Positions 27,135 through 30,405 of a stretch of DNA of 64,000 nucleotides are shown piece after piece. This DNA is from Acidobacteriota bacterium (GTDB lineage Bacteria; Acidobacteriota; Holophagae; Holophagales; Holophagaceae), in contig JACPUT010000006.1 of NCBI GenBank assembly GCA_016192145.1, positions 62,001 through 126,000 on the forward strand, given 5' to 3'. Both the position numbers and the translations under genes were made by a program. How positions within the stretch are numbered: the first letter of the stretch is position 1; the number at the start of each line of letters is the position of its first letter. The notes beneath the pieces are model-generated. The model saw nothing but the letters and a program-made list of their open reading frames with translations, had not been told where the DNA came from and did not search any database.

Positions 27135-27512
27135 CTAGGAACCAGCGCTCGGTTGAACCTGCCAAAGCCCCTGTTGAATGCCGCCGATCTCGAAGATGGA
27201 GATCCGCCCCCAACCCGCCAGATCCATGGACTCCAGAAGGATCTGGCCGCCGGCCTGCTCCGCCGCGCGGGTAGCCGCGTCGAGATCGGGCACCCGGATG
27301 TAGGTGCGGACGACGGGCACCTCAGATTCATGGAGCGGTGCCCGGATGCCGCACAACGAACCGCCTGGGAGCGCAGCCACCACCGCCTGGCCAAGCTCCG
27401 GCACCGCGGCCTGGAACCGCCAGCCCAGGGCCGTGGTGTAAAGCAGGCGGGCCCGGTCGACCTCCGGCGTGACGATTTCCAGATAGTGGATCGGGCTCTC
27501 GGGGGCAGCCAT
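27135..27512 (-). CDS. VOC-family (glyoxalase-like) protein
   Basis: A 125-residue protein with two beta-alpha-beta-beta-beta modules: HYLEIVTPEVDRARLLYTTALGW at the N terminus and VVRTYIRVPDLDAATRAAEQAGG near residue 75. Members include glyoxalase I and dioxygenases, and substrate cannot be told. The ATG at 27512 begins the domain. It lies just beyond the last attC site, so it may be the chromosomal neighbour of the array or a terminal cassette. Confidence 0.85.
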   Translation of the reverse strand: MAAPESPIHYLEIVTPEVDRARLLYTTALGWRFQAAVPELGQAVVAALPGGSLCGIRAPLHESEVPVVRTYIRVPDLDAATRAAEQAGGQILLESMDLAGWGRISIFEIGGIQQGLWQVQPSAGS

Positions 27513-27568: not shown

Positions 27569-27634
27569 ATCTAACAATCGAAACCACCAGCGACGCCGCA
27601 TATCGGCAACGTCTGGTGCATTGAGTGGTTAGGC
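27569..27634 (-). repeat. attC site 1
   Basis: Boxes ATCTAAC and GTTAGGC flank paired arms CACCAG/CTGGTG and CGACGCCG/CGGCAACG. It lies 14 bases after the stop of the 155-residue cassette gene. Confidence 0.87.
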
Positions 27635-27648
27635 GAGAGATCGAATAT

Positions 27649-28116
27649 TCATTTTTGTTTTGCCCGCAAGTACCCAGGGATATTGACCACCCCAGAGCCA
27701 ACAACTTTCAATCCATTCTTGGTTGTCACAACGCGAACTATGACAGTGAACTCAGGCCAGTCCACTCCTTGCAGGAGGACATAACCCCTCTGATCAAGGC
27801 ATCGAAGAAATTTAACCCCCTTATCCGGATAATCCTGACTGTCGAGAACCACATCACTGTCCCAGCCTAGCTCAGGATCTTGTGCTAAGCCTTTTGCCTC
27901 TTCGGCCTTGTAGCTCGAAATAAATCCCTTCGTGACAAGTTGGTTGGAACCAAGCCAGCCTTCAGTGTTCATCGTTTGTCCCGCTTTCACACTTTTCTCG
28001 CGGAAGGCGATGTACTGATTCAGGAATGCAATAGCCACCTGAGCCCGTTCCTTGCAATCACCAGAGCGGCCTATGGATGAGGAAAGTAGAACGATGAGGA
28101 GGATGAAATGTCTCAT
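27649..28116 (-). CDS. Cassette-borne secreted protein, unknown function
   Basis: A 155-residue protein with a signal peptide (MRHFILLIVLLSSSIGRSGD). The mature part starts with a helical stretch (ERAQVAIAFLNQYIAFREKS) reminiscent of DUF3828-type periplasmic proteins, then ends in a beta-rich segment (FTVIVRVVTTKNGLKVVGSG). The family assignment is weak. The ATG is 8 bases from attC2 and the AGGCGAG of the attC box may act as ribosome site. The gene and attC1 form one cassette. Confidence 0.8.
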   Translation of the reverse strand: MRHFILLIVLLSSSIGRSGDCKERAQVAIAFLNQYIAFREKSVKAGQTMNTEGWLGSNQLVTKGFISSYKAEEAKGLAQDPELGWDSDVVLDSQDYPDKGVKFLRCLDQRGYVLLQGVDWPEFTVIVRVVTTKNGLKVVGSGVVNIPGYLRAKQK

Positions 28117-28123
28117 GGGACTC

Positions 28124-28189
28124 GCCTAACTTTCGAAATCACCAGCGGTGGCGCGTAGCGCCAGCGTCAGGTGCATTGAGTGGTTAGCC
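28124..28189 (-). repeat. attC site 2
   Basis: Boxes GCCTAAC and GTTAGCC, with arms around a GGCGC-GTA-GCGCC tip. It is nearly identical to attC4 between the boxes. Confidence 0.9.
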
Positions 28190-28198
28190 GATGAGCCG

Positions 28199-28936
28199 CT
28201 AGCAACCAACAGAGTAATGCTCAGCAATCCAAGTCACTATTTCTTTGCTACTCCCTTTCGGGCTGACAAATAGCGTTGGCTTTGAGACGTTGTAGTGATC
28301 CGTTAGATCAATCAACAAATCTATTGCTCCGTCTGCGTTCAGATCTCCAGCCCACAGCAGTTTGACCCTCCCCCCATCCCCTCGGCCATCGTAGCGACCA
28401 CCCTCGTACGAGACCTCAAAGGAGATCAATGATTGCTTCGTGGCCCCTGTTTGGAGCAATAGAGCAGCGGCACATTTCTCGTACCGGCCTGTACCCATGG
28501 GTGGTGCACAAACTAGGGTAAGAGAATATGATTTGCCCGCCTTGGTTGTAAGGCGAAGGGGCTTGTTGGGAATTAATTCTCGTGCCGATGAATTTGTTTC
28601 GGCTGGGCCTGCGGTGGTTCCAGGGATTCCGCGGAAGAGGAGTATTGGGTTGCCGAGTTTTTCTTTGATGGAAATGCGTTTCCCCGACTTGGTACCTACT
28701 GGATCCACGCCTGCATCCTCAAATGCTCTGACTCGTATCGTCACATCGGCTATCTCGGACTTTCCTCTGCCCGTTTGGACAACCGCAAGCCAATGCTCGC
28801 CAGATGCGACAGATACTTCATCCCCGTGGTAATCGCCGGGTGGCATGATTTGCGGCTTTGGCACCTTCGGGTCGCCTGCAGTCATGGCCTGAGAAACGAT
28901 CAATGCCATGAAGAATTTGAAGCAATTGGATCGCAA
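28199..28936 (-). CDS. Cassette-borne secreted protein, unknown function
   Basis: A 245-residue protein with an N-terminal signal sequence (FFMALIVSQAMTAGD). The C-terminal half has LLWAGDLNADGAIDLLID, an FG-GAP or EF-hand-like Asp-rich turn seen in secreted proteins, followed by DHYNVSKPTLFVSP. No family is recognised. The likely start is TTG at 28936, five bases after AAGGGGAG; an internal ATG nine codons on is possible. attC2 follows the stop by 9 bases. Confidence 0.78.
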   Translation of the reverse strand: MRSNCFKFFMALIVSQAMTAGDPKVPKPQIMPPGDYHGDEVSVASGEHWLAVVQTGRGKSEIADVTIRVRAFEDAGVDPVGTKSGKRISIKEKLGNPILLFRGIPGTTAGPAETNSSARELIPNKPLRLTTKAGKSYSLTLVCAPPMGTGRYEKCAAALLLQTGATKQSLISFEVSYEGGRYDGRGDGGRVKLLWAGDLNADGAIDLLIDLTDHYNVSKPTLFVSPKGSSKEIVTWIAEHYSVGC

Positions 28937-28986
28937 GGTGACTCCCCTTCTGCATAAGCTTCAAGTCGTCCCAATCAAACATCATC

Positions 28987-29053
28987 GGCTAACGTTCCGA
29001 CATCACCGGCGTGGCCGCTCGCGGCCACGTCCGAGTGCATGGAGCGGTTGGGC
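28987..29053 (-). repeat. attC site 3
   Basis: Boxes GGCTAAC and GTTGGGC, with a long GC stem GTGGCCGC/GCGGCCAC. It diverges more from the other three sites. Confidence 0.85.
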
Positions 29054-29065
29054 CGGGAATCGCGC

Positions 29066-29287
29066 TCATGAGACCTCCGCCAATAGTGATGCCGGGATGT
29101 GGTGAGGGGAAAACTGCTTAACGAAGACGGATCTTGTTGAGGTGGGAACGGCTGATGAGATCTTACCGACCAAAGAAGCCTGAGTGGGAACGATGGATGA
29201 GAATGCCGGAATCAAGAACAGGCCAGCGAACGAACAACACCCGGCGATGGAACCGATGATCGTGCGACGAGCGGACGGGTGGAGCAA
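29066..29287 (-). CDS. Possible small cassette ORF, membrane protein
   Basis: A 73-codon frame between attC4 and attC3, on the cassette-sense strand, with one hydrophobic segment (IIGSIAGCCSFAGLFLIPAF). The only start is a TTG with no clear ribosome site, so coding status is doubtful. Stop lies 13 bases before attC3, as expected of a cassette gene. Confidence 0.35.
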   Translation of the reverse strand: MLHPSARRTIIGSIAGCCSFAGLFLIPAFSSIVPTQASLVGKISSAVPTSTRSVFVKQFSPHHIPASLLAEVS

Positions 29288-29303
29288 GAAATCTTACCGA
29301 GCG

Positions 29304-29369
29304 GCCCAACTTTCGAAATCACCAGCGGTGGCGCGTAGCGCCAGCGTCTGGTGCATTGAGTGGTTAGGC
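29304..29369 (-). repeat. attC site 4
   Basis: Boxes GCCCAAC and GTTAGGC; the interior matches attC2 in all but one or two bases. Between this site and the array edge at 29610, a 240-base cassette holds no convincing gene. Confidence 0.9.
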
Positions 29370-29622
29370 GCCAGGCTCGATCAACATCGACCGAAGGGCG
29401 AAGACCACCTGGGATGGAAAGAACTTAAGGTTGGGCAGGAAAAGTTGCCAGCGAACTCGGTGTTGAATTTGTGTGCGCTGGACGGGCGGAGCGTGAGCTT
29501 GAGTAAAGAATGGCAGGGGCCGAAAGAACTGTGAATCGAAGTCGTGGACCCAAAATCGTCGTGGAGAAGATGATGGCGTGGTGCCTGACCGATGCCCGAT
29601 TCGGGGGGCGACTAACTTTGCA

Positions 29623-30273
29623 TTAAGCCGGCCCATCCGCGATAAGGATGGCGGGCTCGAAGGGCAGGCCTTCGGCTTCCTTCGGGGTCTTCATGCCCCA
29701 GAGGACGAGGCGGTGGGCGTAGGGGGCCCAGAGTTCGGGGCGGGCCTTCACGGCGGCGAGGGGCGGGTGGAGCATCAGCTCGGGGGGCAGGTCGCCCAGC
29801 TCGTCGGCGGTGAGGTCCATGGCTTCGTCGGGCTCCCACAGGAAGCCGCAGCGGGCCTCGGGGCACTCGGCCCAGAGCTGCAGCACTTCGGTGTGTTCGA
29901 AGCTGGAGAAGAGCACGCGGGGGAGGGCGTCTTCCGCATCCACGGCGGCGAGGGCCTGCTGCCAGCCGGGCTCGCCCTTGAGCTCCACGTTGATGAGCTT
30001 GGCGGGGAGTTCCAGCACGTCCGAGAGGCGGGGCACGGGCTCGCCGTTGGTGAGCTTGGGCAGCTCCGAGGCCTTCATCTGCCGCAGGGTGCCGCCGCCC
30101 TGGGCGGTGCGGTCCAGGGTGTCATCGTGGAGCACGGCGCAGACGCCATCGCGGGTGGGCTGCACATCCAGCTCGAAGCCATCCATGCCCGCGGCGAGGG
30201 CGGCGCGGAAGGCTTCCATGGAGTTCTCAAGGTGCTTCGAGGAATAACCGCGGTGGCCGAGGATGAGGGGCAT
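29623..30273 (-). CDS. Glycerophosphodiester phosphodiesterase family protein
   Basis: A 216-residue GDPD TIM barrel. Catalytic features are LGHRGYSSKHLENSMEAF at the N terminus (His 7, Arg, Glu), ELDVQPTRDGVCAVLHDDTLDRT near residue 34 with metal-ligand Glu and Asp and the second His, and NVELKGE near 95. It hydrolyses glycerophosphodiesters to glycerol 3-phosphate and alcohols. There is no signal peptide. The ATG at 30273 begins the fold. The cassette array joins just after its stop codon. Confidence 0.9.
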   Translation of the reverse strand: MPLILGHRGYSSKHLENSMEAFRAALAAGMDGFELDVQPTRDGVCAVLHDDTLDRTAQGGGTLRQMKASELPKLTNGEPVPRLSDVLELPAKLINVELKGEPGWQQALAAVDAEDALPRVLFSSFEHTEVLQLWAECPEARCGFLWEPDEAMDLTADELGDLPPELMLHPPLAAVKARPELWAPYAHRLVLWGMKTPKEAEGLPFEPAILIADGPA

Positions 30274-30301: not shown

Positions 30302-30405
30302 GCTGGACACAGAGGACACGGAGCGAGCACAGAGGACGCGGAGGAAAAGCCTATGGGCCCTTATTCTGCGTCCTCTGTGGATTTTCTGGGTCCTCCGTGT
30401 CCAGC
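30302..30405. repeat. ACAGAGG-type intergenic inverted repeat
   Basis: The left arm (30303-30345) reads GGACACAGAGGACACGGAG with a second partial repeat, and the right arm (30366-30405) is the complement ending CCTCCGTGTCCAGC. It lies between the GDPD and ThrE-like genes, nearly touching the latter's stop. Confidence 0.85.

Follow-up and report, generated by a model that had tools for sequence, protein, structure and literature searches.

We found that the window (a 64-kb stretch of DNA, G000:C7:62001-126000) contains a short array of integron cassettes directly behind a GDPD gene and far from any integron integrase, and we propose that it was probably seeded by an integrase (IntI) acting in trans, which would have inserted a cassette at a chromosomal G|TT site behind the GDPD stop codon. 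There are four attC sites in the array, two IntI genes on other contigs, and further cassette islands with the same type of attC site; the left edges of these islands resemble the core of an attI site, and in three of them the consensus of the terminal attC site is lost at the crossover. The genome (G000; 3.8 Mb in 19 contigs) belongs to the family Holophagaceae (Acidobacteriota), which includes Geothrix, and is from a different genus. By the definition used in IntegronFinder, a CALIN has at least two attC sites and no integrase nearby (PMC9024848). The first-pass annotation had given the array this name, and the name fits, as there are four sites (at least two are needed, spaced by <4 kb) that are 316-864 bp apart, with no intI nearby.

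All of the features of the array are on the minus strand. The GDPD gene (PF03009; 29623..30330) is conserved in the family, lies upstream of the array, and runs in the same direction as the cassettes. The left junction (29608..29627) reads TTAATGCAAAG|TTAGTCG, with the crossover between G 29616 and T 29615; it lies 7 bases past the GDPD stop codon and looks like an attI-core-like (attG-type) target half. With the crossovers set at G|TT, the cassettes are, in order, cassette 1 (306 bp; 29310..29615) with attC4 (29304..29370), cassette 2 (317 bp; 28993..29309) with attC3 (28988..29054), cassette 3 (863 bp; 28130..28992) with attC2 (28124..28190), and cassette 4 (555 bp; 27575..28129) with attC1 (27569..27635), which is the terminal site. 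At attC1, the crossover falls between 27575 and 27574, and the right junction reads GATTG|TTAGATAT. The GC content of the cassettes is 50-59%, versus 66-72% for the adjoining sequence. Downstream of the array is a VOC-family gene (27135..27512, minus strand) with host-like GC content and no attC site after it; it was not found in the sole congener, whose genome is 76% complete. On the other side of the GDPD gene, between it and the next gene, there is an imperfect 50-nt inverted repeat around ACACAGAGGACACGGAG (30302-30405). Parts of it recur at C1:367757, C7:657978, and C9:3825 (90-96%), so this is probably a dispersed repeat family.

The four sites had been described as attC hairpins with RYYYAAC and GTTRRRY end boxes. 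All four are indeed copies of a 67-nt repeat, but the strict boxes are present only in attC1 and attC4; attC2 and attC3 are each one letter off (on the gene strand, R'' of attC2 is GGCTAAC and R' of attC3 is GTTAGCC). The claim about folding held up: on both strands of all four repeats, the hairpin beats nearly all shuffles, and for the plus strand, folded as DNA, the number of shuffles (out of 200) that fold equally well was 5 for attC1, 2 for attC2, 10 for attC3, and 0 for attC4. We also agree that attC2 and attC4 are nearly identical (98% over 60 nt) and that attC3 is divergent (61% identical to attC2); attC3 has one extra unpaired T in L''. The hairpins are imperfect, with L'' and L' arms, and on the gene strand a bulged A and a bulged G are found on the L'' arm only. 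In class 1 attC sites, it is the L'' arm (gene strand) that carries the extrahelical bases, so the bulges agree with the direction of the cassette genes. The second bulged base is usually C in attC sites and is G in these repeats.

A search with an attC covariance model, which the first-pass annotation had named as the way to check its claim, came out in its favor. Model R2 was built from 15 Geothrix attC sites and from none in the window, and its top four matches in the 64-kb window (with filters off) were these repeats, each of them on the minus strand (E = 2.0e-7 for attC4, 1.9e-5 for attC2, 5.8e-5 for attC3, and 0.029 for attC1); the fifth match had E = 0.51. Model R1 was built from seven sites of the window's genome and from no Geothrix site, and it recovers sites that are adjacent to intI in Geothrix (six sites in G046 C4, at 36.8-42.3 bits, and also sites in G068 C1). 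Across 27 distinct sites, 88.8% of cells are paired, as compared to 75.4% if shuffled and 20-41% if slid, and 13 base pairs are changed on both sides, but the alignment was fitted to the structure and so the pairing figures lean toward it. There was no match in Rfam, and none in Pfam for the cassette ORFs.

Because the repeats are short hairpins that recur in several places, they might instead belong to another hairpin family, such as a REP-like element or a terminator. We consider this extremely improbable. R2, which is an independent attC model, recovers the repeats, and a search of ~85,000 genomes for the type pattern found just two Geothrix records and 19 unrelated matches. (We dismissed these 19 of the 21 matches as chance; they do not have attC ends.) Furthermore, the RYYYAAC and GTTRRRY ends, the bulges on one arm, the low-GC intervals, and the intI-linked arrays of the same architecture in Geothrix all argue against hairpins of some other kind. 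Judging from their sequences, the repeats are genuine attC sites, and we predict that IntI can recombine them.

As claimed by the first-pass annotation, the cassette ORFs point the same way (minus strand). Their stop codons lie 13 bases (155-aa protein), 8 bases (245-aa protein), and 11 bases (73-aa ORF) before an attC site, versus the claimed 9-14 bases. Cassettes 1 and 2 are gene-poor. One cassette had been said to lack a credible gene, and this is true of cassette 1, as its 90-aa ORF (29364-29636) begins outside the cassette; cassette 2 is likewise unconvincing, with only a doubtful 73-aa ORF (29066-29287) that has a TTG start. Cassettes 3 and 4 encode a 245-aa protein (28199..28936) and a 155-aa protein (27649..28116). 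Both proteins have apparent signal peptides (as read from the sequence) and neither has a Pfam or NCBIfam family, as the annotation had suspected. We searched 92 other genomes of the class for the 245-aa protein and found a single relative (45% identity), in another genus of Holophagaceae (G006). That relative sits in a low-GC region; we considered whether it is a cassette as well, and rejected this because no attC site is nearby. When the 245-aa protein was compared to plasmids, the sole match was of 54 residues, to one plasmid, and its structure prediction gave no usable fold (pLDDT 30). For the 155-aa protein, a single-sequence model (pLDDT 67; best Z 7.6) tentatively suggests an NTF2/cystatin-like fold. 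The cassettes are a pool of apparently secreted proteins without a known family. Cassettes of other islands encode a DUF6624 protein (L036:8585-9388) and a protein that ends in a SEC-C metal-binding motif (L102:5884-6507).

The first-pass annotation reported no IntI gene in the window, and there is no match to TIGR02249 (IntI) in the window or anywhere on contig C7. The array is integrase-less by its position only, however: a search of the whole genome identified two IntI genes above the curated TIGR02249 cut-off of 265 bits, at C6:186626 (460 bits) and at C5:73499 (397 bits). Both are full-length and retain the catalytic residues as well as the insert that is specific to IntI. Four Geothrix IntI were compared most closely, and the C6 IntI shares 73-76% identity with them. 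The second IntI (G000:C5:73499-74440) is only ~57% identical to the first. Within 18-20 kb on each side of either gene, neither R1 nor R2 found an attC site, and a regex-plus-fold scan around both genes gave no convincing attC site. Upstream of both intI genes, there is no recognizable attI or attC site, so the activity of the two IntI is presumptive.

Elsewhere in the genome, R1 identified further sites at C7:455700, C7:570815, C1:506097, C9:40381, and C5:78, the last of which is at a contig end (C5:78-146), as well as a relic attC at C7:454688. The sites at C7:570815 and C1:506097 are outside the R1 training set (E = 9e-5 and 2e-4, respectively). With the window array, this gives five readable islands, the other four being C7b (at C7:455700), C7c (at C7:570815), C1, and C9. 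The attC type is common to all of the islands, and across the five, the GC content is 47-53% for the inserts and 60-72% for the flanks. Each of the five follows a host gene of the same direction (the chance of this for all five is 1 in 32). In the smaller islands, the attC sites are degraded, so the activity may be old. In island C7b, there is a 174-aa gene (L034:8142-8666) beyond the relic attC and then a sequence resembling a decayed attC site, GCCCAACCACTCGATTCGCCGG; this island may hold three cassettes.

The left edges of the islands share a short core. On the gene strand, they read GCAAAG|TTAGTC (window), ACAAAG|TTAGGG (C9), TCAAAG|TTATGT (C1), CCAAAG|TTAGGC (C7c), and CCAAAA|TTAGGC (C7b, in which A replaces G at the crossover). 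CAAAG|TTA is at the left edge of 4 of the 5 readable islands, where the edges were located partly by motif search. In 436 kb of strand positions of the genome's own sequence, CAAAGTTR occurs five times, and four of the five are island edges; 3.1 occurrences would be expected from composition in the whole 436 kb. The stretches from the host stop codon to the first cassette gene or attC site amount to just ~600 bases in total (our own sum), so the number expected there by chance is far below one. The likely attI site of the family, which is upstream of intI in most relatives, is CCAATTCAAAG|TTAGGC or a close variant of it. For delta-attI1 sites, a minimal core of AAACAAAG|TTRRRY has been published (PMC12901181). 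Past ~8-12 bases, the left flanks no longer look like attI, do not look like attC, and differ from each other, which speaks for separate insertion events. At the other end, the terminal attC sites of three islands match L' as far as the G, after which they diverge (CTAAGG in C9, CTAGTC in C1, and TCAAAT in C7c). This loss of the consensus past the crossover G is expected if the remainder is target DNA. The terminal attC of the window retains TTAG after the G, so no break is visible there.

These edges bear on two other explanations for the islands. First, they might be remnants of complete integrons that have lost both intI and attI by deletion. In the literature, CALINs are proposed to arise by loss of intI, among other routes (PMC8618304), and some Geothrix CALINs start with a long attI-like stretch next to which we found no intI (G021 C1, G021 C2, and G045; L165:2416, L171 minus strand 6374, and L166:2842). 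In the window's genome, however, the likeness to attI covers just ~8-12 bases before each left edge, while true attI sites share a longer stretch; the left edge in the window is 7 bases past the GDPD stop codon; and intI and attI would have to be lost from four or more separate integrons. We therefore view this explanation as unlikely. Second, a single ancestral array near intI could have been scattered by chromosomal rearrangements. All of the islands have one attC type, which fits, and the attC site at the contig end (C5:78-146) implies that part of an array may be unassembled. But fragments of an array should begin within a cassette or at the R' box of an attC site, and the left edges are instead unrelated, non-attC sequence up to CAAAG. 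Also, neither intI gene retains a nearby attC site. This second explanation seems to us very unlikely, even more so than the first.

We prefer insertion in trans, in which the acting recombinase would be an IntI encoded elsewhere in the same genome. The cassettes would enter as folded single-stranded attC bottom strands, and the target would be a chromosomal G|TT just past the GDPD stop codon that resembles the attI core of the family; the predicted original target site is TTAATGCAAAG|TTAGATATC, and those predicted for C9, C1, and C7c are ACAAAG|CTAAGG, TCAAAG|CTAGTC, and CCAAAG|TCAAAT. Later cassettes would then have been added by attC recombination, if we have the order of events right. As expected for attG-type insertion, IntI is encoded in the same genome and the edges are at G|TT positions that are neither attC nor attI (with A before TT in C7b). 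A complete integron would have intI and attI adjacent to the array; here, the intI genes are on other contigs and the left edge has only an attI-like core. The cassettes run in the same direction as the host gene upstream of them, so read-through from it may drive their expression. The system may still be active.

We found no empty site in genomes of the family, either for the array region or for the joined flanks of three other islands; single flanks match, but never side by side. The reason is that the genera differ in how genes are ordered around the islands and that the only congener for comparison (n = 1) is incomplete. Many related genomes keep the GDPD gene and none has the array there, where the comparison is to other genera and to the one incomplete congener.

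A broader idea is that this is an integron without a fixed platform. The orphan IntI, which have no attI or array, would insert cassettes at, and shuttle them between, attI-core-like sites that follow co-directional host genes. The entire chromosome would then act as the array, with host promoters taking the place of the integron promoter. We offer this as a speculation that has some chance of being right but is more probably wrong.

The window array is a known kind of element. Like CALINs in general, it has clustered attC sites, co-directional cassettes, and no integrase nearby; what the definition of a CALIN does not include is that this genome has two IntI as well as small islands whose edges suggest direct off-target insertion. 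In 2024, Loot et al. reportedly demonstrated, by experiment, the insertion of cassettes into the chromosome at sites other than attC and attI (attG). Here too, cassettes are found at such sites with IntI in trans. In contrast to that work, CAAAG is common to the target halves in the window's genome and the family's attI core, and the proposed insertions are natural, probably old, and in Acidobacteriota. The insertion at attG sites has been cited (PMC12444791 and PMC12901181), and three origins have been proposed for CALINs, off-target insertion among them (PMC8618304). Because integrons in Acidobacteriota have already been listed (PMC8618304), an Acidobacteria-specific attC model exists (PMC8352920), and CALINs away from intI are common, as in Xanthomonas (PMC12444791), the array is not new in kind. 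In the papers searched, we found no description of integrons in Geothrix or Holophaga. Off-target insertion is an already-described process that is seldom so readable in nature: several islands in one genome, with a common attI-like core and the integrase in trans, allow the origin of a CALIN to be read at the level of bases. This makes one of the three proposed origins testable in a phylum whose integrons are little studied. The Holophagaceae are good ground for such tests (of 77 genomes, 46 have an IntI above the cut-off and 33 have attC sites according to R2). Two things might interest a specialist: that such a set of edges occurs in a single genome, and that large arrays are abundant in Geothrix.

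Geothrix limicola Red804 (G046) and other Geothrix, from the same family, have attC sites with the same architecture as in the window and IntI that are 73-76% identical to the C6 IntI. In G. limicola Red804, an array begins at attI beside intI and the genome has at least 25 attC sites, whereas the window's genome has short arrays away from intI. In three Geothrix genomes (G021, G068, and G004), there are also cassette arrays of 13-19 kb and more that are far from intI (L165, L167, L169, and L170). In the long Geothrix arrays, the length of an attC site is about 68, 110, or 126 nt. G004 and G068 are single-contig genomes, and the arrays of G068 are at C1:692-719 kb, which adjoins intI, and at 1.20 Mb and 2.68 Mb.
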